Source of the DNA: Psychromonas sp. Urea-02u-13
GTDB lineage: Bacteria > Pseudomonadota > Gammaproteobacteria > Enterobacterales > Psychromonadaceae
Assembly: GCF_002835995.1 (NCBI RefSeq)
Contig: NZ_PJBZ01000079.1
Span: 1 to 34,216 of the forward strand
Direction: 5' to 3'
Length of the DNA stretch: 34,216 nt
The notes under the pieces: model-generated
The model's input: only the letters and a program-made list of their open reading frames with translations
What the model was told of the DNA's origin: nothing
Database searches by the model: none
Shown: positions 2,970-13,259 of the stretch, piece after piece
Position numbering within the stretch: the stretch's first letter is position 1
Layout of the letters: each line of letters starts with the position of its first letter
Made by a program: the position numbers and the translations under genes

Positions 2970-4477
2970 CTGTCTCTTATACACAAATAATGCCCTTGAC
3001 TTTTTTATTGGTTATGATCAAATCCTTCTATTTAGCGATAGGGGAAATAATGCTTGTTGATAATACTGAGGCTTGGGCATCGAATATTTTTGGTTCGGCC
3101 AATTTAGGAGACCCTCGCAGGACAACGCGCTTAGTGAAATTAACATCTGATTTAGCATCATCTATAGGAGATTCTGTGGTTAAAGCATGCCAAGACCCCG
3201 CGAGCTCTGAAGGGGCATACAGCTTTATTCGAAATGACAGTATTTGTGTGAAAGAAATTTCACAAGCCGGTTTTTCCCATACGGATAAAAAGGTGAAAAA
3301 TACTCGATTAGTATTAGCAGTACAAGATACAACTAGCTTGACATATAAGCATTCGGTATGTCGTGGCTTAAGTGAAGTCTCCTCTGCAAACTTAAATAAA
3401 ACAAGCAAAGCTAGATCATTATTTGTACATTCAACTGTGATGATCGACGCGGATAGTGAGCTGACACTTGGCCTTGCAAATCAACATTACTGGACTCGCG
3501 AAGAAAAAGTTAAGGGAACAAAAAACGAACAAAGAGAGCGTCCAAAAACAGAAAAAGAGAGCTATAAGTGGGAACGAAATATTTCTGAAATAACAAATAG
3601 GCTGGGTGATTCAAATAATGTAATTGATGTTTGCGACAGAGAAGCTGACATGTTTGAGTACTTAGAGTATCAGATAAGTAACAACAATCGGATGATAGTT
3701 AGAGCAAAAGAGAATCGCCGCTTAGCGAAAACAAATAATAAATTATTTGATGAGTTAGATAATGCCAGTATTTGTGGCTATAAAAAAATCTATATTCCAC
3801 AGCGAGGAAAACGTAAAGCTAGGCATGCAAAACTAGCACTTTCTTATACTCAAGTTGAATTAAAAAAACCAAGTAAGAGCAAAGGAAGTGATTCATTAAA
3901 ATTAAATATAGTTCAATGCCAAGAGGTCAGTGATATAGGGGAAGAGGAGAAGCTTTGTTGGAAGCTCTACACAACTGAGGATATATCGAGTGTTGAAGAC
4001 GCTGAAAAAATAGTGAGATATTATGAATTACGTTGGTGAGTAGAGGAGTTTCATAAAGTTTGGAAATCAGATGGCACTGAGGTGGAGTCTTTGCGCTTAC
4101 AGTGTAGAGATAATATAGAGAGGTTGGCAGTTATCATGGCATTTATCGCTATTCGATTATATCAAATGCGCGAGATTGCACAAAATAACAAGAGAGCGAA
4201 AGATATCCCATGTACAGAGTATATCAGTGGCTTAAGTTGGAAAATACTGTGGAAGGCAACTGAGAAAAAAACAGCACCACCAATAACTCCACCCTCAATC
4301 TACTGGGTATATTATGCGATTGCTAAGCTAGGCCGCTGGCAGGACAGCAAAGGAAGCGGTCGCGTAGGTATGAAAGCTTTTTGGCGAGGATGGATAGAAC
4401 TAATGAAATTAGTAGAAGCCTATGAAATGTTCAAAAACTTCGATCTGGATTAGCTTACACTTGTGTATAAGAGACAG
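2970..4477 (+). mobile_element. Complete Tn5/IS50-like insertion sequence (IS4 group), 1508 bp
   Basis: The left end CTGTCTCTTATACACAAAT (2970-2988) and the inverted right end (reads CTGTCTCTTATACACAAGT from 4477 back to 4459) differ at one base in 19. The right end matches the Tn5 outside end as I remember it, except that base 4 is T, as in the engineered mosaic end. The element is flanked by a 9-bp duplication with one mismatch, and it encodes a transposase clearly related to Tn5 Tnp (3050-4453). The length is close to IS50 (about 1.53 kb). The transposase has a premature stop, so the copy is probably non-autonomous. The single mismatch in the duplication suggests that the insertion is not very recent. 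Confidence 0.95.
3050..4453 (+). pseudogene. tnp: Tn5-like IS4-group transposase interrupted by an in-frame TGA
   Basis: The ATG at 3050 has an AGGGGA ribosome site 4-5 bases upstream, and the protein then aligns with Tn5 transposase from its start (LGDPRRT..RLV, EGAYSFIRN). The DDE residues are visible: Asp in VQDTTSLTY (residue 93) and Asp in VCDREADMFEY (residue 196). The YREK region reads YELRW, then TGA at 4037-4039, then VEEFHKVWK. The stop replaces the residue two before the catalytic Glu (E326 in Tn5). The frame continues unchanged to 4453 (137 more residues), giving 467 codons against 476 in Tn5 Tnp. One base change (CGA to TGA is the simplest) explains the break. The 329-residue product would lack the third catalytic residue and the C-terminal dimerisation part, so it should be inactive. 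Confidence 0.93.
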
Positions 4478-4486
4478 CGCTTTGCG
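4478..4486. repeat. Right 9-bp target-site duplication of the IS50-like element
   Basis: CGCTTTGCG follows the right end directly and pairs with CGCTCTGCG at 2961-2969, with one mismatch. Confidence 0.85.
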
Positions 4487-4568
4487 TGGTAATGCATAAC
4501 GACCACAACTTACAAATCTCAATCAGTCCCACTTCCAAAAGCAGGTTAATTGCTCATCAGAAGAAGGC

Positions 4569-4695
4569 CTTCAGTCATGCATAGCTTGTAGCATCAGCAA
4601 TAGATGTAAGCCAAAAGGCGAACTTGCAGGGAGTTTAAGTGGCGTGTTGTTTGGGAAGTGGAACTTCAGTCCTGCATAGTTTGTGGTATTAGCAA
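4569..4695. repeat. Imperfect 32-bp direct repeat, two copies 95 bp apart
   Basis: Copy 1 (4569-4600) and copy 2 (4664-4695) both begin CTTCAGTC, share TGCATAG and end AGCAA. They agree at 27 of 32 positions by my count. Inverted CCACTTCC and GGAAGTGG motifs also occur near 4530 and 4655. No coding sense is evident; this may be a decayed repeat family. Confidence 0.55.
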
Positions 4696-4739
4696 CACGG
4701 TTATGAAACAGAGATAAATTAATGGAGGGTATAATAAAT

Positions 4740-4782
4740 CAGGTTTAACCTACGCGAATTAAAGTGCGAAAGGTTAAACCTG
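4740..4782 (-). terminator. Strong hairpin after the chemoreceptor gene
   Basis: CAGGTTTAACCT (4740-4751) and AGGTTAAACCTG (4771-4782) form a perfect 12-bp stem with a 19-base loop that contains a further CGC/GCG pair. It begins about 28 bases after the minus-strand chemoreceptor stop. The following minus-strand bases (ATTTATTATA) are only weakly T-rich, so it may be a terminator or an mRNA 3'-end stabiliser. Confidence 0.55.
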
Positions 4783-4810
4783 AAAAGGATTTAAAAGCTT
4801 GTACTGTGCT

Positions 4811-6952
4811 TTAACTGTCACGTAGTTTAAAGGTGGATAATATCTCTTTGAGCAGTGCTGACTGTGATGATACTTGTTCAGAGGCCACTGCACTGGCTTG
4901 TGCGGTGTCGCTATTTTTTTGGATAACACCATCGATTTCGACCACACCTTGATTGATCGTTTCAGCGCCGATGGCTTGTTCTTTACTGGCGTTGGCAATT
5001 TCTTCAACCAGCTCTGTTGTTTTTCTTACTGTATCAATAATGCTTTTCAAGCTGGTGGCTGTTTCGCTGGCAATAAGGCTACCATTTTTAGTTTTTGCTA
5101 CCGAGCCATCGATTAATTTAGAGGTCTCCTCTGCCGCTTTTGTACTTCTGGCTGCTAAGCTACGCACTTCATCGGCGACCACTGCAAATCCTCGGCCTTG
5201 CTCACCTGCGCGTGCTGCCTCAATGGCCGCATTTAAAGCCAGTAAGTTTGTTTGTGCTGCGATATCATCAATAGTGCTGATAAAGCCTGCGATGCTCTGA
5301 CTGGCTTCTGAAATTTCCACCATCGCTTCTATCATTTCATTCATTTTATTACTGCCTTCGAGTGCTTCGGCCTGTGCTTGGCTTGAGAATTGTCGTGCTT
5401 GGTCGGCATTCTCGGCATTCGTTGAAATCTGTGTTGTCAGTTCTGTCAGTGATGTTGAAATGTTTTCTATACTGCCTGCTTGCATTGAAGCGCCTTCAGA
5501 CAACATTGAACTACTAACTGCAACGCTACTACTGCCTTGTGAGATTTCTGAGCTGGCTAGTTGAGTGCGTCCTAATACGTCATTTAAATTGTCGCTCATT
5601 TCTTGTAGCGCAATACCTAAGGTATCTTTGTCAGAGGCTAAGATAACGTTTTGATTAAGATCGCCGGCTGCTATGTTTTGTGCCAAGGCTGCTTTTTCTT
5701 GCAGCGTTGTCATCATTTTTTTCATTTCAGCGAAAATGCCTTTATCTACACCATTGCTTTTTAGCGACATACTTAAGTCGCCAGCTGCCACGGTTTTCGC
5801 TATTTTAGCAATGTAATTCGGCTCACCACCGAGTAAATTCATTACATGACGTGTTAACCATAAGGCGATAACAATACCCGCAATAAGCGCAATCAATGTC
5901 CCGAATATAGCGACACTTAGTACCATTTTTTCAGTGCTTTTTAACGAGTCCATACGTGCATTGAGTAGGCCTCTTTCTCTTTCTTGAAAAGTGCTAATTT
6001 GTCCTCTAAATTTGTCGAAATAGACTTTCCCTTTTGCTTGGCCGATGAGATCTGCCATGTCATCCATCGTTTTGCTATCACCAATTTTACTGCGTAACGC
6101 AATTTGCTGTTTAACCACTAAATTTATCCAGTTATCGATAGTGTCTTTACTTTCGCTTAATAAAGTAACTTGGGCTGGGTTATCTGAGACGGTTTGCGAC
6201 AATTCATTGAGCAGTAGATAAAAATTATTTTTGCCATCATTATAAGGCTGGAGAAATTGATCTTGTCCGGCGAGTAGATAACCGCGCATGCCGGTTTCCA
6301 TATCAACGGCAGAAGCCACTATTGCTTGTGCTTTACCAATAACTTTATAAGTATGTTCAACTCTTTCTGTTAGTCTTCTGAGCTCTTCAATATTGTAGGT
6401 TGTTTGCATTTCTTTTTGACGTATTACCATCAGCTTTTCTTCACGCTCAACAAAGGTGTTTAATTGTGCTCTGAATTTATCAAAGTACTGTTTACCTTTT
6501 GCTTGTTTGATAATGTCAGCCATATCGTTCATGGTTTTCGAATCGCCAATTTTTGTTCTTAATGCGATAGCGGGTTCAGTGACTTTAGTTTGCCATTCGC
6601 CGATAGTGTTTGATATTTCTTTTAATAAAGAGACTTGTGCTGGGTTATCTGAAACCGTTGCTGAAAGCTCGTCGACTAAACGATTAAAAGAATTTTTACC
6701 GTTATCATAGGGGGCGAGAAATGACTTTTTACCTGCTAATAGATAACCCCTCATGCCGGTTTCCATATCAACGGCCGATGCTTCAATTTTGGAGGCGGTT
6801 TCTAATACATCATGAGTATGGTTAACCCATGAAAATTCCTTTACGAGTGATTCAACACTTAAAAAAACAACGATGGTGACCATTATCATTAAGGATAATA
6901 TTAAGCCGTAGCCAGAGAGTAATTTTGATTTAAAGCTCAGATTTGACAACAT
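4811..6952 (-). CDS. Methyl-accepting chemotaxis protein with two tandem CHASE3 domains
   Basis: A 713-residue chemoreceptor. A membrane helix at about 10-33 is followed by a periplasmic region with two copies of the same CHASE3-like module (about 53-175 and 208-330). They are related at an offset of 155 residues and share VDMETGMRGYLLAG, SDNPAQV, IGDSKTM and QAKGK-YFDKFR. A second membrane helix (about 343-366) leads into HAMP segments (about 367-460) and a cytoplasmic signalling domain with the hairpin core DDIAAQTNLLALNAAIEAAR and GRGFAVVADEVR. It should signal to CheA/CheW and be methylated at glutamines/glutamates of the MCP helices. There is no C-terminal pentapeptide for CheR binding. 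AAGGAAAG precedes the ATG. No che genes are nearby, so it is an orphan receptor. The ligand is unknown. Confidence 0.95.
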   Translation of the reverse strand: MLSNLSFKSKLLSGYGLILSLMIMVTIVVFLSVESLVKEFSWVNHTHDVLETASKIEASAVDMETGMRGYLLAGKKSFLAPYDNGKNSFNRLVDELSATVSDNPAQVSLLKEISNTIGEWQTKVTEPAIALRTKIGDSKTMNDMADIIKQAKGKQYFDKFRAQLNTFVEREEKLMVIRQKEMQTTYNIEELRRLTERVEHTYKVIGKAQAIVASAVDMETGMRGYLLAGQDQFLQPYNDGKNNFYLLLNELSQTVSDNPAQVTLLSESKDTIDNWINLVVKQQIALRSKIGDSKTMDDMADLIGQAKGKVYFDKFRGQISTFQERERGLLNARMDSLKSTEKMVLSVAIFGTLIALIAGIVIALWLTRHVMNLLGGEPNYIAKIAKTVAAGDLSMSLKSNGVDKGIFAEMKKMMTTLQEKAALAQNIAAGDLNQNVILASDKDTLGIALQEMSDNLNDVLGRTQLASSEISQGSSSVAVSSSMLSEGASMQAGSIENISTSLTELTTQISTNAENADQARQFSSQAQAEALEGSNKMNEMIEAMVEISEASQSIAGFISTIDDIAAQTNLLALNAAIEAARAGEQGRGFAVVADEVRSLAARSTKAAEETSKLIDGSVAKTKNGSLIASETATSLKSIIDTVRKTTELVEEIANASKEQAIGAETINQGVVEIDGVIQKNSDTAQASAVASEQVSSQSALLKEILSTFKLRDS

Positions 6953-7256
6953 GTTCTTTCCTTCTCATTGCTCTTGTATGGTCTAGTTCGAAGACCCTAT
7001 TTTTAGATGACTTAAATATGGTAAAGATTTTTAGTAAATGCCAATTTAATTGAACATATTTACAGCAAACCTGACATTGAAGAGTTTCAAAGGAGGGGGA
7101 AGAAGAAATAACGATTGTCTTTTTTAAATGGAACTTGTTATTCATTTATTTGAAAGTATAAGCTTTCAATACAGATCGTTGCATTTTGTGAATCGGTTGA
7201 GTCGACAATAGTGTGCGTGTTTACCCTCGGTAATCACGCGACAGAGGTGGCTCGCA
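6953..7256. other. Intergenic region between AraC and chemoreceptor genes
   Basis: This holds the upstream region of the minus-strand chemoreceptor gene and the downstream end of the minus-strand AraC gene. A perfect 7-bp inverted repeat TTGAAAG-tataag-CTTTCAA lies at 7150-7169. I looked for a flagellar-type (sigma 28) promoter before the chemoreceptor and did not find a convincing one. No gene is seen. Confidence 0.5.
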
Positions 7257-8078
7257 TTAAAGTGTTTCATCAAGCCATTGTTTAGGCGATATTCCCATTT
7301 TTTTTCTAAATACGCGCGCCAGTGCAGAGCCATTTTCATAACCCACTGCATTAGCCACCAGTGCGACAGGTTTATGCTGTAATAACAATCCTTTTGCCAC
7401 CAGAATGCGCCAATCAATCACATAATCCCCAGGGCTTTGACCCACTGTGCGCTTAAACAAGTCAGAAAACTTTGAACGTGACATCAAGGCAAGCTCGGCC
7501 ATCTCTTGTAATCCCCATTGACGCTCTGGCGCATCATGTATTGCGAGCAAAACGGTAGACAACTGTGGGTGAGCCAATCCTGCAAGCAAGCCATGCTCAA
7601 TGAGTTTGTTATCGAGCACATGGCGCAATACATAAATAATAAAGATATCCGTTAACGAATTAATCATAGGCAATCGGCCACAATCCTCATTAAACGCTTC
7701 TTCAAACAACCACTGTGCGGTTTTCATCAAGGCGGGACTTTCGCTGAGTTTAAAACACAGCAATGCAGGTAAGGCTTCAGCAATTGGATTTGAGGTGTTT
7801 TCATTATAAATGATATTGGCACAGACCAATGTCGGTGGATTTTCTTCACTGGCAATAATGCGATGCGCGTGTTGCGTAGGGAAAAACATCACCGTGGGCT
7901 CATCGATTAAATGTGCAACACCTTGCTCATCAATGATGGTTATCTCGCCACGTTGCAATAGGTGTAAGTGGCCTTTGTTGGGTTCTCGATTAAAGTTGGA
8001 AATACCGCAGAGATTACCGGTGAAAAATACTTCTGTATTGATAGAGAAGCGCTGAAGAATGACTGATAACGGATCCAT
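7257..8078 (-). CDS. AraC-family transcriptional regulator with N-terminal cupin domain
   Basis: A 273-residue regulator. The N-terminal half is a cupin-like sensing domain (HLHLLQRGEITI, then FFPTQHAHRI, about residues 38-75). The C-terminal ~90 residues hold the two AraC helix-turn-helix motifs: the first around MAELALMSRSKFSDLFKRTV and the second around VANAVGYENGSALARVFRKK, ending GISPKQWL. The layout matches the AraC subgroup with a cupin_6-type sensor. The gene is divergent from the YHS-thioredoxin-bufferin operon that starts at 8237, with 158 bases between, so it is the obvious candidate regulator of that operon. The inducer is unknown; copper or another soft metal, or redox stress, is an inference from context. 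Confidence 0.9.
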   Translation of the reverse strand: MDPLSVILQRFSINTEVFFTGNLCGISNFNREPNKGHLHLLQRGEITIIDEQGVAHLIDEPTVMFFPTQHAHRIIASEENPPTLVCANIIYNENTSNPIAEALPALLCFKLSESPALMKTAQWLFEEAFNEDCGRLPMINSLTDIFIIYVLRHVLDNKLIEHGLLAGLAHPQLSTVLLAIHDAPERQWGLQEMAELALMSRSKFSDLFKRTVGQSPGDYVIDWRILVAKGLLLQHKPVALVANAVGYENGSALARVFRKKMGISPKQWLDETL

Positions 8079-8236
8079 TATTACCTCATTTAGAACAGAT
8101 TTGGACGATTGGGTTCAATGTTAGGACTATGTCATCCCTTTTGCTTTGTTGAAAGCGCTAAATTTACTTCCAAGGAAAACAACCTAATAAATGCATCACC
8201 TTTAAAACCTTAAATCTAAATACATGGAGTAATAAT
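8079..8236. promoter_or_regulatory. Divergent promoter region, AraC gene / bufferin operon
   Basis: These 158 bases separate the AraC start (8078, minus) from the YHS gene start (8237, plus) and must hold both promoters. A GGAG ribosome site lies before 8237. I see no strong -35/-10 pair and no clear long inverted repeat, so promoter positions are not assigned. Confidence 0.5.
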
Positions 8237-8722
8237 ATGAAGCTTTCAACATTTGTAAAATCAACGTTTGTATCAACGGCGCTACTGGCGAGCAGCTTAA
8301 CTTTTGCCGCTAATATTGAAGTCAACGCAAACAGTAATGACATCGCAATCAGCGGTTACGATACGGTTTCTTACTTTACTAAAGGCGCGCCAACAAAAGG
8401 CTCTAACGAATTTACAGCTGCTTATAACGGTGCAATCTATCAGTTTGCTAGTGCTGACAATCGTGACTTATTTAAAGCTGCACCTAGCAAGTATGCACCG
8501 CAATACGGTGGTTTCTGTGCAATGGGTGTCGCGCTAAATAAAAAATTAGAAACAGACCCAACGGCTTGGCATATCCGTGGTGATAAGTTGTACCTGAACT
8601 ACAACAAAGCGGTACAGAAAAAATGGAATACAGACATTCCTGGTTACATCGATACTGCGCAGGTGAACTGGATTGATATTAAAGGTTTAACTGAAGCACA
8701 AATCGAAAAAGTGTACGAATAA
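8237..8722 (+). CDS. Periplasmic YHS-domain protein, first gene of the bufferin-type operon
   Basis: A 161-residue protein with a clear Sec signal peptide (hydrophobic core STALLASSLTFA, likely cut near residue 24). The mature part matches the secreted YHS-domain family: ISGYDTVSYF near residue 38, YGGFCAMGVALNKK with a single Cys near residue 95, WHIRGDKLYLNYN, and a W-rich end. YHS domains are found in metal-handling proteins, and the Cys is a plausible ligand. The gene opens a tight operon: its stop overlaps the start of the thioredoxin gene (TAATG). Location next to a bufferin set suggests a role in periplasmic metal binding or delivery, which is inference. Family assignment is firm. Confidence 0.88.
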   Translation: MKLSTFVKSTFVSTALLASSLTFAANIEVNANSNDIAISGYDTVSYFTKGAPTKGSNEFTAAYNGAIYQFASADNRDLFKAAPSKYAPQYGGFCAMGVALNKKLETDPTAWHIRGDKLYLNYNKAVQKKWNTDIPGYIDTAQVNWIDIKGLTEAQIEKVYE

Positions 8723-9066
8723 TGTCAAATCATGCGATGACGATTAAGCCACTATCAGCGACAGACTCACTTGAGGCATTACTCGCACAACATGAATACT
8801 CATTGTTATTTTTTAGTGCTTCATGGTGTGGGCCTTGTCAGTCGATGACGCCGATAGTAGCCGAAGTCGCTAGCATGATGAGCAAGCGTATCAATGTGAT
8901 TAAGCTGGATGTAGATACTTCTGCAAAATATGCAGAAGAATACGCTATACGCAGTGTACCCACGCTGTTTGTAGTCAAAAACGATGAAATTATTGCCCAA
9001 TGTGTTGGCGGATTAGCAAAATCGAAGCTGACACAGTGGTTAACACAACTTACTGAGAGCCACTGA
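8722..9066 (+). CDS. Cytoplasmic thioredoxin-like protein (WCGPC)
   Basis: A 114-residue single-domain thioredoxin with the canonical active site SASWCGPCQSM (near residues 33-43), the conserved KLDVD strand, and the cis-proline loop RSVPTLFV. There is no signal peptide, so it acts in the cytoplasm. It is translationally coupled at both ends: its ATG overlaps the YHS stop and its TGA (9064-9066) overlaps an upstream ATG of the next frame. An in-frame ATG at residue 6 is an alternative start. Its placement directly before a cysteine-rich precursor peptide gene suggests that it keeps precursor cysteines or the modifying enzymes reduced before export. That link is inference; the fold is certain. 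Confidence 0.92.
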   Translation: MSNHAMTIKPLSATDSLEALLAQHEYSLLFFSASWCGPCQSMTPIVAEVASMMSKRINVIKLDVDTSAKYAEEYAIRSVPTLFVVKNDEIIAQCVGGLAKSKLTQWLTQLTESH

Positions 9067-9101
9067 TGGGTGGCGCTCAATTTAACAAACTAGGAAATAT
9101 G

Positions 9102-9377
9102 ATGAATAAAAAATTATTAGCAAGTGCTGCATTAGCTGCGTTTTTATCGACGAGTGTTGTTACTCAAGCGCAAGCTGCCAGTAAAGAGAAATGTTACGGC
9201 GTTGCACAAGCGGGTCAAAACGATTGCGCTAACTTAGCGGGTACCCATTCGTGCGCGGGCCAATCAAGTATTGATAATGATAAAGGCGAATGGAAATTAG
9301 TTAAAAAAGGCACCTGTTCGACCTTAGGTGGATTGTCGAAATCAGAAGCTAAAAAGTTACATTTAGCCTCTCAATAA
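9102..9377 (+). CDS. bufA: BufA-type precursor peptide (DUF2282), bufferin candidate
   Basis: A 92-residue peptide starting MNKKLLASAALAAF with a Sec signal peptide likely cut after AQA (about residue 25). The core has four cysteines (31, 42, 51, 72) in the DUF2282 pattern EKCYGVAQAGQNDCA, HSCAGQSS and KKGTC. DUF2282 proteins next to DUF692 enzymes are the precursors of bufferins, RiPPs in which a subset of core cysteines is oxidised to thiooxazole-type heterocycles and which bind copper. The related gig cluster of Cupriavidus is induced by gold. AGGA (9092-9095) is 6 bases before the ATG at 9102. The ATG at 9099 is also possible; the ATG at 9066 would spoil the signal peptide. The signal implies cytoplasmic modification followed by Sec export. 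Confidence 0.9.
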   Translation: MNKKLLASAALAAFLSTSVVTQAQAASKEKCYGVAQAGQNDCANLAGTHSCAGQSSIDNDKGEWKLVKKGTCSTLGGLSKSEAKKLHLASQ

Positions 9378-9395
9378 ATTTTCTGGAGAATGAAT

Positions 9396-10268
9396 ATGTT
9401 GGTTAAGAAACATGAAATATTAGTGGGTGTTGGGTTACGCCATGCACACTTTGCCGACATATTAACTTCGCCAAAAGAGGTTGATTTTGTCGAAGTGCAT
9501 TCTGAGAATTTTTTTGGACAGGGTGGTGGTGCTCTATCTGTGCTTAATCAAGTAAGGGAAATCTACCCTGTCAGCTTACATTCGACCGCGATGGGGCTGG
9601 GATCAATAGCTGATATTCCTGCCACTTATTTACAGCATCTAAAACGATTAACCACCAATATTGATCCCTTTTTAATGTCTGAACATGCTTCTTTTACTTG
9701 GGGGCATCATCAAGGGCAGTTAATCAACAGTGGTGACTTATTACCGATTAAACATACCCATCAAAATTTGAAACGTATGTGTGAACAGGTGGACAAAGTG
9801 CAGTCCTTTTTAGGTCGACGTCTTATTATTGAAAATGTCTCTGCTTATATACAGTTTGATGAGAGTGACCTGTCAGAAGCTGAATTTTTAACCCAACTGT
9901 GTCAGCAAACAGGGGCAAAAATCCTCTTGGATATTAATAATATTGCCGTTAATAGCATTAACTTTGAAGGTGGCGACATTCAACAATCTGTCGCTGATTA
10001 TATCAATGTCTTGCCAAAGGACAGTGTTGCACAAATTCACTTAGCGGGGTGTAGTCCTGTATCAGCGGGGCAACTCACGATAGACGATCATGCTTGTCCT
10101 GTTTCCGATGATGTATGGCTAGCTTATCAGCAAGCAATAACACGTTTTGGTGCTGTGCCTACATTGGTGGAATGGGATAACAATTTGCCTGAGTGGTCTG
10201 TGTTGATTAAAGAAGCGCAAAAAGCGCGAGATATCGCGAATATGATTTTAGGGCCGCACTATGAATAA
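9396..10268 (+). CDS. bufB: DUF692 multinuclear non-heme iron oxidase (MNIO), bufferin modification enzyme
   Basis: A 290-residue TIM-barrel-like DUF692 protein. Family landmarks: VGVGLRHAHF at the start, DFVEVHSENFF (about 30-40), VSLHSTAMGLGS (His62), MSEHASF (Glu96, His97), IIENVSAY (Glu146), LLDINNIAVN (Asp179), IHLAG (His215), DDHACPV (Asp231, His232) and LVEWDNNLP (Glu259). The His/Asp/Glu set fits the multi-iron site of MNIOs such as MbnB and BufB, which oxidatively modify cysteines of a precursor peptide using O2. The ATG at 9396 is preferred because GGAG (9385-9388) lies 7 bases upstream; the ATG at 9390 would have only one base of spacing. It lies 18 bases after bufA and overlaps the next gene by 8 bases. 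Expected partner: the DUF2063 protein. Confidence 0.93.
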   Translation: MLVKKHEILVGVGLRHAHFADILTSPKEVDFVEVHSENFFGQGGGALSVLNQVREIYPVSLHSTAMGLGSIADIPATYLQHLKRLTTNIDPFLMSEHASFTWGHHQGQLINSGDLLPIKHTHQNLKRMCEQVDKVQSFLGRRLIIENVSAYIQFDESDLSEAEFLTQLCQQTGAKILLDINNIAVNSINFEGGDIQQSVADYINVLPKDSVAQIHLAGCSPVSAGQLTIDDHACPVSDDVWLAYQQAITRFGAVPTLVEWDNNLPEWSVLIKEAQKARDIANMILGPHYE

Positions 10269-11052
10269 CGTTGCTATTAAACGCGATAATGAACAGCAAC
10301 GTCTTTTAGAGGCGATTTGGCACGATGACGCATCGGTTATCGCACTAAATGGTTTTGAGGAGCAGGGCATCAACATTTATCGCCGTAACTTATTCGCCAA
10401 TGCACAGCGTGCATTAAGCATCAGTTTCCCTACTGTTTTTGAATTGCTTGATAGTGATGTCAGTGAACATTTAACGAAACAATTTTTGCGCTTTTCACCG
10501 CCCCATCAAGGTGATTGGGCGCAGTGGGGGCATGATTTCTCTGCATTTATCAATACGACTGAGATTGGCCAAGATTATGCCTATCTGGCTGATTGTGCGA
10601 CCTTGGATTGGCATGTGCACAGGGCATTACAGGGTAAAGACCAAGTGTTGGACCAAACCACATTACAGCTCCTTGCCGAGGGTGAGCCTGAGCACCTTGT
10701 TATTATCTTTAACGCTAATGTGCAATTGCTTAAAACAGATTACCCGTTAGTGGATATTTTTGATGCGCATCACCATCAAGACAAAACGCAGCGAGAAGAT
10801 GCATTAAACAATGCCAAGCAAGCTTTATCATCCGTATTGGTGGCCCATGATGTGCTGATTTACCGCCCTGAATTTCAGCCTTGTATAAGCCGATTAATCA
10901 GCAGTGAAGGGCTATTTATGCAAGCGTTAATGGCAAAAAAATCATTAGCAGAGTCGTTGGATCTGGTTAGTGATGATGTTCACTTTTCATTTGAAAAATG
11001 GCTGCTCAATGCCATCAAACATAATTTAATTCATTATTTAAAAGAGATTTAA
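10261..11052 (+). CDS. bufC: DUF2063 protein, partner of the MNIO (BufC-type)
   Basis: A 263-residue protein. The N-terminal domain carries the DUF2063 signature YRRNLFANAQRALSISFPTV (about residues 40-59), followed by LTKQFLRFSPP and DWAQWGHDFSAFI. The C-terminal half, after a D/H-rich stretch near DIFDAHHHQ, is more variable, as is usual for the family. In MNIO systems this protein acts as the recognition partner that brings the precursor leader or signal region to the DUF692 enzyme, comparable to MbnC in methanobactin synthesis. It overlaps the bufB end by 8 bases, indicating translational coupling. Only family-level evidence is available, but the gene order fixes the role well. Confidence 0.9.
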   Translation: MNNVAIKRDNEQQRLLEAIWHDDASVIALNGFEEQGINIYRRNLFANAQRALSISFPTVFELLDSDVSEHLTKQFLRFSPPHQGDWAQWGHDFSAFINTTEIGQDYAYLADCATLDWHVHRALQGKDQVLDQTTLQLLAEGEPEHLVIIFNANVQLLKTDYPLVDIFDAHHHQDKTQREDALNNAKQALSSVLVAHDVLIYRPEFQPCISRLISSEGLFMQALMAKKSLAESLDLVSDDVHFSFEKWLLNAIKHNLIHYLKEI

Positions 11053-11054
11053 CC

Positions 11055-11519
11055 ATGACCACTTTAAACACCCTATTTTTATCGACGGGCCAAACATATC
11101 AACGCATCGCAACAAAAATAAGCCTATTAGAGCCGGTGGCTTTATTAGTCGCTCGTTTCTATGTGGGCTGGGCATTTTTCTCTTCGGGTCTTACTAAGTT
11201 AAATAACTGGGACAGTACGCTATTTCTATTTGAAGAAGAATATAACGTGCCATTTTTACCCTTTGAACTTGCTGCTTACATGGGCACGGTTGCAGAGATA
11301 CTGTTACCTTTGTTATTGATGACAGGCCTAGCAAGTCGTTTTTCTGCATTAGGGTTGTTTTTTGTCAATATCGTGGCGGTTATCAGCTTGGAAGAGATTG
11401 CTGCGGCCGCTTATGCGCAACATGTTTTATGGGCAACATTATTGTTACAAATAGTTATTTTTAGCGGTGGTCGTTTTGCCTTTGATTCTCTACTTAAACG
11501 TCATATCAATAAGTTTTAA
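11055..11519 (+). CDS. bufD: DoxX-family membrane protein, last gene of the bufferin operon
   Basis: A 154-residue protein with about four membrane helices. DoxX signature regions: ARFYVGWAFFSSGLTKLNNW (about 33-52), ELAAYMGTVAEILLPLLLM and the final helix ATLLLQIVIFSGG. It starts 2 bases after the bufC stop. DoxX-like proteins close many bufferin/gig operons (GigT in Cupriavidus). A respiratory or redox role in the membrane is suspected but not settled. In this operon it could help recycle electrons for peptide maturation or handle the metal-loaded peptide at the membrane, which is inference. Confidence 0.9.
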   Translation: MTTLNTLFLSTGQTYQRIATKISLLEPVALLVARFYVGWAFFSSGLTKLNNWDSTLFLFEEEYNVPFLPFELAAYMGTVAEILLPLLLMTGLASRFSALGLFFVNIVAVISLEEIAAAAYAQHVLWATLLLQIVIFSGGRFAFDSLLKRHINKF

Positions 11520-11894
11520 ATGAGAATATAGAAGTTACTTTAACTGTTTGTTAGTGAGGTCTTTGTTTATGGTTAAGTAGTAGAAATTAAATATAATAAA
11601 TTCAACGTTAAGTTTGAGAAACCGTCTCTATTGAGACGGATCAAGAGGTGAAAGATCAGCCATTGTGCGATAACGAAATATTTGAGGAATTTTTATTATC
11701 GACGCTAATATTTTTGAATCAAGTATTGCCTTATTTTTAGAATATTGAACCGTGATGTGATAAGGATATTTATGATGTATATATTCCTACTTTAGATTCA
11801 ATGTACTTTACTTCTAGTTTAGTTGGCTCTTTTGGCTTAATATTTGCATTTCATCTACATTATCGTTGTTTTAATTATTTTTAAGGAATTTAGT
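11520..11894. other. Intergenic region after the bufferin operon
   Basis: No gene is seen. A perfect hairpin CCGTCTC-TATT-GAGACGG lies at 11622-11639, about 100 bases after the operon; it lacks a T-run, so termination is uncertain. The rest is very AT-rich and must hold the promoter of the lipoprotein gene, whose AAGGAA ribosome site is at 11882-11887. Confidence 0.5.
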
Positions 11895-13259
11895 ATGAAT
11901 AGATTACTCGCATTGTCAGTATTGGCCTGTAGCGTATTAACAGGCTGTGGCAGTAGCGGTGGTAGTTCTCCGGCGTCAGTTAAAAAATATACGTTTGAGT
12001 TCGTTAAGTTGGATGAGGGTGAAGTATCAACCTGTACAATATTTGACGGATTAGAACAAAATATTGACACTAAGTATGTTGCTTATAAGACAGGGCCACA
12101 AAACATCGATATTCATGATGAAAATGGCATTTACAGTAAAAGTTTAACGAACAAAAATGGCGTAATAACGTTTAGTGAAAATGATGTGCCTGATGGTGGT
12201 TATGTTTCTGTTATCGAATATGTTCCGGGGTCAAAAAATTACCAAGTTTTATCTATACAAAAAGCATTGCTCGGAGACTATTTAATCCGATTAAATACTG
12301 GCTCTGGAAGCGATTGTTATACTACGAATAAAGGAATCTCTAAAAAATCAGGTACAGCCTCTATTACGGATGAGGGTTTAGCATCAAATTACTTCCAGTA
12401 TATAACAACGCAAGAAACGACCTCTCTGTTAGTTGGCACACGTAACTATAAGACTAGTGCTTATACAGATGAAAAAGTATTAGCCAAAGGGTATAACGGT
12501 GATGGTAATGATTTAATTGCTTATGGTTTTAGTACATTAAATGGCACAGCTACAGAATTAAGCGAGGTTCCGGACAGCTTAGATTGGTATACTGACTTTG
12601 ACCTTAATGGCCTTGAAAGTTTAGCGGTGAGCCTTAAAAAAGGTAATTATACATACGCTTGGTTTGACGCTGAATTTGACCCAACTTTAGATACTAGAAA
12701 GTCATTTCCATTTAGTTATGATGAGTCTGAGTGGTTATATACTGCTACGGGGTCAATAAATGATTGGAAATTTCATCATAATGCAAGGTTTACTGATACG
12801 TTAGATGTCAGTTTAATGGCGAATATGGATGACTCTGGAAATCCGGAGATTAGCTATAATGGGACTAGCTATATATTTGATGCACCTGGAATTAGTTCAA
12901 GCAATGATTTAATACAGCGTAGCTACTACTATACAGAAACGACAGGGCCTAATGCGGCGCTAACGCACATTATATATAGCGTGCCAAGTAGTGATGGCAA
13001 AGTCATTATCCCTGATTTAAAGCTAGATTCACCTTTATCACCTGAAGACTTCAGCGATATAGCGGTGTCTATTGTTGCAACAGAATCTATGGATGAAGAT
13101 TTTGTGGAAAGTTTTATGCGCCGTTTTCAACCAGTTGATCCGAATTCAGGAAGCTTCTCATCAAATGAAGATAGTATTTCATTGTTATTGTCGCCTGCTG
13201 ACCAGCTTAAGCAACGTCAAAATACTGAAATGAACGATTATACTCTCGTCGAGCGCTAA
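11895..13259 (+). CDS. Secreted lipoprotein of unknown function (~454 residues)
   Basis: The start at 11895 gives a clean lipoprotein signal, MNRLLALSVL followed by lipobox LTGC at residues 15-18 and a flexible GSSGGSSP linker. With Gly at +2 it should go to the outer membrane. The 11844 start would add 17 residues ahead of the signal and is rejected. The mature part is acidic and rich in Tyr, Ser, Thr and Asp, with beta-strand-like periodicity (DGGYVSVIEYVPGS, YTYAWFDAEFD) and no motif I recognise. Two Cys near the start (STCTIF) and one later (SDCYT) could form a disulfide. It is monocistronic, with a good terminator at 13295. It could be a surface or carbohydrate-associated protein; I make no functional claim. 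Confidence 0.8.
   Translation: MNRLLALSVLACSVLTGCGSSGGSSPASVKKYTFEFVKLDEGEVSTCTIFDGLEQNIDTKYVAYKTGPQNIDIHDENGIYSKSLTNKNGVITFSENDVPDGGYVSVIEYVPGSKNYQVLSIQKALLGDYLIRLNTGSGSDCYTTNKGISKKSGTASITDEGLASNYFQYITTQETTSLLVGTRNYKTSAYTDEKVLAKGYNGDGNDLIAYGFSTLNGTATELSEVPDSLDWYTDFDLNGLESLAVSLKKGNYTYAWFDAEFDPTLDTRKSFPFSYDESEWLYTATGSINDWKFHHNARFTDTLDVSLMANMDDSGNPEISYNGTSYIFDAPGISSSNDLIQRSYYYTETTGPNAALTHIIYSVPSSDGKVIIPDLKLDSPLSPEDFSDIAVSIVATESMDEDFVESFMRRFQPVDPNSGSFSSNEDSISLLLSPADQLKQRQNTEMNDYTLVER

Follow-up and report, generated by a model that had tools for sequence, protein, structure and literature searches.

A stretch of 34,216 nt from Psychromonas sp. Urea-02u-13 (contig NZ_PJBZ01000079.1; hereafter the window) carries six genes on the + strand at 8237–11519, as judged by open reading frames (ORFs) and protein family matches: a YHS-family gene and a thioredoxin gene, followed by bufA, bufB, bufC and doxX of a bufferin system. 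The YHS gene (8237–8722; NF041384 158.1 bits, cut-off 70; PF04945 32.8 bits, cut-off 30.3) shares one base of its stop codon with the start of the thioredoxin gene (8722–9066; PF00085 80.8 bits), whose product has a WCGPC motif and, by eye, no signal peptide. Next come bufA (9099–9377), encoding the DUF2282 bufferin precursor (PF10048 82.3 bits, cut-off 22.4), bufB (9390–10268), encoding the MNIO (DUF692) maturase (PF05114 292 bits, cut-off 25), bufC (10261–11052), encoding the DUF2063 partner protein (PF09836 55.1 bits, above cut-off), and doxX, or bufD (11055–11519), encoding a DoxX membrane protein (PF07681 59.2 bits, above cut-off). The bufA start was set at 9099 and not 9066 because of an AGGAAA directly upstream (by eye). 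The gaps along the run are then −1, 32, 12, −8 and 2 nt, the widest lying between the thioredoxin gene and bufA, and their small size makes a single transcript likely. Both the gene families and the tight or overlapping boundaries given in a preliminary description of the locus are borne out by the ORF and profile matches. Divergent from the run, on the − strand, is a gene for an AraC-family regulator with a Cupin_6 domain (7257–8078), the sole Cupin_6 match in the genome. Between it and the YHS gene lies a putative operator (8103–8138, + strand) of two GGAC boxes spaced by exactly 21 bp.

The bufA product has an N-terminal signal peptide (by eye) and four Cys residues that are conserved in the alignment. 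A four-Cys precursor with an adjoining MNIO gene, a DUF2063 partner and DoxX is the gene set of the Buf1 (DUF2282) systems; a Buf2 assignment was not supported, the BufA2 family (NF050166) giving 25.5 bits against a cut-off of 60. BufB scores 306.9 bits with NF050167 (MNIO_BufB), slightly below the cut-off of 310, and matches the solved MNIO chains 3bww, 8hci and 7dz9. The same core of DUF2282, MNIO, DUF2063 and DoxX proteins is found in the gig operon of Cupriavidus and Legionella and in CC3254–CC3257 of Caulobacter (PMC5413113, PMC3511200). Unlike these known systems, the window adds the YHS and thioredoxin genes and a precursor subtype marked by the sequence NLAGTHSC, with eight residues between its second and third Cys. 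In place of the sigma-F and NrsF of Caulobacter (PMC3511200) it has the AraC/Cupin_6 regulator and tandem site; the sigma-factor control that the preliminary description gave for the Caulobacter system was correct. Neither a sigma factor nor NrsF was found by Pfam among the nine ORFs of 4811–13259, the only part of the window and genome searched for them. A second bufferin cluster of this genome (bufA, bufB, bufC, doxX) is on contig C288, and the extra genes of the window cluster were not found in the 14 kb read around it.

Whether read from the YHS or from the bufA side, the association recurs. A scan for YHS relatives gave at least 576, of which the best 80 were kept. In 19 of these 80, bufA lies −60 to 600 nt behind the YHS gene on the same strand, and in one further case (L171) doxX lies between the two. 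The 19 come from Moritella, two Psychromonas, Motiliproteus, a Colwellia metagenome-assembled genome (MAG), Pseudoteredinibacter, a Cellvibrionaceae MAG, Alteromonadaceae M269, Cognaticolwellia, Thalassotalea, two Marinobacter, a Pseudomonadales MAG, two Oceanospirillales, Ningiella, Glaciecola XM2 and two alphaproteobacteria (PA4, Sandarakinorhabdus). From the other side, 394 genomes of the order were searched with a profile built from 13 bufA of the window's subtype (A5) and with a YHS profile (E up to 1e-25). The bufA places formed two groups, 29 scoring 136 bits or more and 100 scoring 84 bits or less. A YHS gene was present no more than 1500 nt upstream, in the same orientation, at 27 of the 29 high-scoring places and at one of the 100 others (G397), a contrast that is descriptive and carries no p-value, the genomes being related. 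The association is beyond chance, given that many genera share the gene order and that the YHS link was upheld from the bufA side. At the two unlinked high-scoring places there was either no YHS gene alongside (G427) or a degenerate remnant (G602). In a sample of the class (321 genomes), DUF2282 was found in 86 and adjoined a YHS gene in only two, the window's genome and G029 (coordinates by eye), so the variant is rare overall. Three places in that sample exceeded 100 bits with A5, namely these two and the unlinked G166. L244 carries, at 965–1351, a degenerate YHS gene lacking the Cys94 motif, ahead of a bufA of the subtype; its neighbour in the BufB tree, G427, has none.

The linked precursors are themselves distinctive. 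The motif NDC[A/G]NLAGTHSCA surrounds the two central Cys at every one of the 29 high-scoring order-sample places, and the bufA of a named Cognaticolwellia reads NDCSNIAGTHSCA. Among 28 distinct YHS-linked bufA, which came mostly from the YHS-directed search, the second and third Cys are separated by eight residues in 25 and by seven in three. In 49 bufA without YHS that had enough upstream sequence (three with less than 1100 nt were set aside), the spacing was six residues in 32, seven in 14 and eight in three. The central Cys of Buf1 precursors are the ones that become modified (PMC12452194), so the difference between subtypes falls within the modified core. In a BufB tree of 87 rows, rooted at the midpoint, 38 rows split off with support of 100/99, comprising 36 YHS-linked sequences and the unlinked G166 and G427; two further YHS-linked rows, L159 and L175, fall outside this group. 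Eight rows had been dropped from this tree (six repeats of a place and the long branches L246 and L171), L116 was relabelled as YHS-linked, its cluster being split, and L244 was counted as linked despite its degenerate YHS gene. Taking together the linkage (27/29 versus 1/100), the constant NLAGTHSC motif and the separate BufB branch, the window cluster represents, on sequence grounds, a real and distinct YHS-linked subclass of the Buf1 system.

The composition of this subclass is less uniform than the window would imply. The 27 linked bufA of the order sample make up 25 clusters, two of which have tandem bufA. Of the 25, 14 include thioredoxin, 20 have a divergent AraC gene directly beside YHS, and 12 have both. 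The YHS gene is thus the near-constant extra gene, and the thioredoxin and divergent regulator are optional. At seven of the 19 places found from the YHS side (L113, L114, L116, L117, L121, L127 and L128) a thioredoxin gene separates YHS from bufA, and in the two Marinobacter it is behind doxX. The thioredoxin of the run is set apart from the genome's other thioredoxins placed in a tree. The exact order AraC–YHS–thioredoxin–bufA–bufB–bufC–doxX recurs in the named Cognaticolwellia, the Colwellia MAG and two Oceanospirillales. The preliminary description had suggested a distinct variant with its own non-sigma regulator, and such a variant, conserved, is supported; the possibility it raised, that the extra genes are not conserved beside the buf genes, is contradicted for YHS by the linkage counts. 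Its view of the six genes as one unit does not hold: 11 of the 25 clusters lack thioredoxin, five have no divergent AraC beside YHS within the stretch read, and AraC with YHS also occurs without bufferin, in Psychromonas (G012, G014, G018) and in Vibrio, Photobacterium and f10 genomes. At a syntenic site in Psychromonas, with genes common on both flanks (though other genes there vary too), G009 and G020 carry the thioredoxin–buf block, and G012, G014 and G018 lack it. Because the pair persists there without bufferin, the regulator and YHS have a use of their own.

The tandem site accompanies the regulator and YHS genes widely. The sequence [G/A]GAC[G/T/A]A occurs twice at exactly 21 bp in 29 of 46 AraC–YHS intergenic regions, 22 of the 26 with bufferin and seven of the 20 without, after dropping two regions of 130 nt or less and with some places counted twice (L113 = L037, L114 = L038). 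Other offsets from 12 to 30 gave no pairs except at 23 (two) and 30 (one), and 100 shuffles gave a mean of 0.02 and a maximum of 1. In the window's genome the pattern, allowing up to three mismatches, matched once, at 8103 and with zero mismatches; the reversed control pattern gave 0 and 2. Among regions without bufferin, Psychromonas L036, L039 and L040 share the tandem site, which is the same in G012, G014 and G018, and L135, L137 and L143 look different. No pair was found in the bufferin-bearing L117, L124, L127 and L128, nor in the Vibrio and f10 regions, which by eye retain one GAACGATT- or GGACGATT-like box. For an AraC-type activator one would expect direct repeats in tandem, spaced by two helical turns, and 8103–8138 is a conserved tandem site ahead of YHS, a putative operator.

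The reading that we favour, at a probability of roughly one half, is that this Buf1 subclass is induced under stress by the AraC/Cupin_6 regulator and that the YHS protein acts in the periplasm on or with the bufferin, likely as a single-thiol redox partner. Under copper and/or oxidant stress the regulator would bind the tandem site and turn on one transcript. Within the cytoplasm, BufA may be held reduced by the operon's thioredoxin, or by others where that gene is absent, and the thioredoxin could serve as reductant for the BufA Cys or for the MNIO cycle; whether MNIO enzymes need an external reductant is described as unclear in a preprint (PMC12668002), and a dedicated redox step in the operon is plausible. 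The next steps would follow the Buf1 pathway, in which BufB and BufC place thiooxazoles on BufA, export is by Sec and copper is sequestered in the periplasm (PMC12452194). Here BufB–BufC would convert the two central Cys into metal-binding thiooxazoles, BufA would be exported by Sec, and DoxX would perform a membrane step. The YHS protein, exported too, would meet this bufferin subtype in the periplasm, its single thiol (Cys94) most likely protecting or resetting the modified bufferin or its outer disulfide, and would not be a metal store.

A different explanation, which we consider rather doubtful, is that AraC and YHS form an independent stress unit and that the bufferin genes merely lie behind its promoter, co-regulated without joint action. 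The regulator–YHS pairs without bufferin described above, the same tandem site in G012, G014 and G018, and the presence or absence of the thioredoxin–buf part at one syntenic Psychromonas site all fit this explanation. However, YHS still adjoins bufA where no divergent AraC is present (the five order-sample clusters, and also L118–L120, L149 and L168), it tracks one bufA subtype, and two other YHS subclades have joined other bufA. The latter (L159/L175 and L171/L275) are separate couplings, to bufA with seven residues between the second and third Cys. In a quick tree of 157 distinct YHS sequences (leaving out matches below 100 bits or 110 residues, and rows sharing their last 110 residues), the window's YHS protein falls in a subclade of 54 (Shimodaira–Hasegawa-like approximate likelihood-ratio test, 99), 38 of them buf-linked and 16 not. 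Fifteen of these 16 have a divergent AraC (the exception is L122), so that 53 of the 54 adjoin bufferin, an AraC/Cupin_6 regulator, or both, unlike NF041384 proteins at large.

The YHS protein of the window is secreted (by eye) and has one Cys, Cys94, which with Asp42 and Gly92 is invariant in all 157 relatives; exactly one Cys is present in 36 of 42 buf-linked YHS proteins. The metal ligands of YHS/TRASH domains are an Asp and three Cys (PMC4626032), and the canonical site (Asp or Cys plus three Cys) is absent from the window protein. It scores above the NF041384 cut-off and has the GxC motif. A review names NF041384 among selenoprotein families, with a selenocysteine motif GxU (PMC13188914), which fits Gly92-x-Cys94. 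The single invariant Cys and the missing Asp/three-Cys site make a redox role look likelier than metal binding, and leave the periplasmic metal step of the preliminary description unsupported. A role in periplasmic metal binding or delivery, as a copper chaperone or sensor supplying metal to the bufferin or taking it off, is accordingly unlikely in our estimate: a YHS domain probably senses copper in a Mycobacterium phlei cyclase (PMC4626032), the neighbouring gene encodes a member of a copper-buffering peptide family, and Asp42 and Cys94 could be two ligands, but the three canonical Cys ligands are missing and a selenocysteine form within the family (PMC13188914) suits catalysis more than storage. 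An AlphaFold model of the YHS protein, made with 129 sequences, has a mean predicted local distance difference test score of 91.0.

A divergent AraC-type regulator ahead of genes for, among others, a small periplasmic and an inner-membrane protein, with a copper link via RclA, is also the arrangement of RclR–rclABC in E. coli, and rclC (DUF417) is akin to DoxX; unlike the window, that system has no bufferin genes. RclR (NF040475) is the best NCBIfam match of the window regulator, at 81.7 bits and so far under the equivalog cut-off of 400. In E. coli, oxidation of Cys21 and Cys89 activates RclR, which regulates the Cu(II) reductase RclA (PMC7464077). A Cys near position 24 was seen by eye in 52 of 53 YHS-linked regulators, and in a smaller alignment of 13 regulators all 13 had Cys aligned with both Cys21 and Cys89. 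In a larger, scripted alignment, none of the 53 had Cys at both RclR positions, since Cys24 is displaced by three columns from Cys21; the Cys89 column (Cys86 in the window) held Cys in nine of nine control rows, two of them YHS-linked regulators (L296, L298). That the regulator is an RclR-like reactive-chlorine switch, and the operon an oxidant response in which bufferin removes copper that worsens oxidant damage, is improbable despite the best match and the recurring Cys, given the low score, the column counts and a run without an rclA-like gene.

Several of the results weigh against the favoured reading. The Cys likeness of the regulator to RclR is weak, 11 order-sample clusters do without thioredoxin, and the 15 AraC-bearing rows of the window's own YHS subclade represent a use of YHS that needs no adjoining bufferin. 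Solved structures offered no helpful relative of YHS and leave its chemistry unexplained. The eight-residue spacing also occurs in five bufA without adjoining YHS (L194, L204, L205, L246 and L249), so it is the full motif, and not the spacing alone, that marks the subtype; L246 and L249 have other sequence between the two Cys.

The emphasis therefore belongs on a YHS-bound bufferin subclass with a separable regulator and YHS half, and not on six genes with thioredoxin. In a 2025 survey of MNIO clusters, further conserved genes are said to occur in extremely low proportions (PMC12452194). YHS, thioredoxin and AraC go unmentioned in the main text of that survey (supplements apart), and a term search found none of them in the available text of PMC5413113, PMC12538549 and PMC12668002; nor did the open-licence PMC text hold any paper pairing the YHS domain with DUF692, with thioredoxin and DoxX, or YHS with MNIO. 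Two papers there pair thioredoxin with DUF2282. A nearly obligatory YHS protein and a precursor altered between its modified Cys give a handle on the fate of bufferin after export, and the subclass one on how metal buffering ties to redox stress. More tentatively, the YHS protein could be an unrecognised bufferin partner, a single-Cys or selenocysteine periplasmic redox enzyme that services the NLAGTHSC thiooxazole peptide, with an oxidant-sensing AraC/Cupin_6 regulator of marine gammaproteobacteria joining copper buffering to thiol-oxidant defence. Direct tests of these proposals are made possible by the compactness of the gene set, by the conserved tandem site and by the natural presence/absence pairs in Psychromonas.

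Some further features of related loci were seen. The window YHS protein is 91% identical to those of G024 and Moritella (L033, L112), as against 71–79% to those of seven other genomes of its own genus, a pattern that suggests transfer between the groups. The Moritella-type clusters read have no thioredoxin. At 1132–2734 of L283 (G029:C4) another Cupin_6 AraC gene is divergent from a second, weaker-scoring YHS gene, and because of it the regulator–YHS pairing seems wider than the bufferin system. L278 (G468:C1:1066000-1078000) has AraC–YHS–thioredoxin–bufA–doxX at 3561–6307, with bufB and bufC not found in the 12 kb read; a second YHS cluster in the same genome (L277) carries both, which suggests that the L278 BufA is modified in trans. 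Two Psychromonas genomes have tandem, near-identical bufA copies 320 nt apart (L037 4553–5418, L038 4482–5350). Near the AraC–YHS site of several Psychromonas is a gene (L035 5481–6089, L036 9798–10406, L037 11343–11951, L039 1016–1624, L040 1565–2173) that we take to encode a CbiM-like protein of cobalt/nickel uptake. In the window, the regulator gene adjoins one for a chemoreceptor (4811–6952) with two CHASE3 stretches and an MCP signalling domain.

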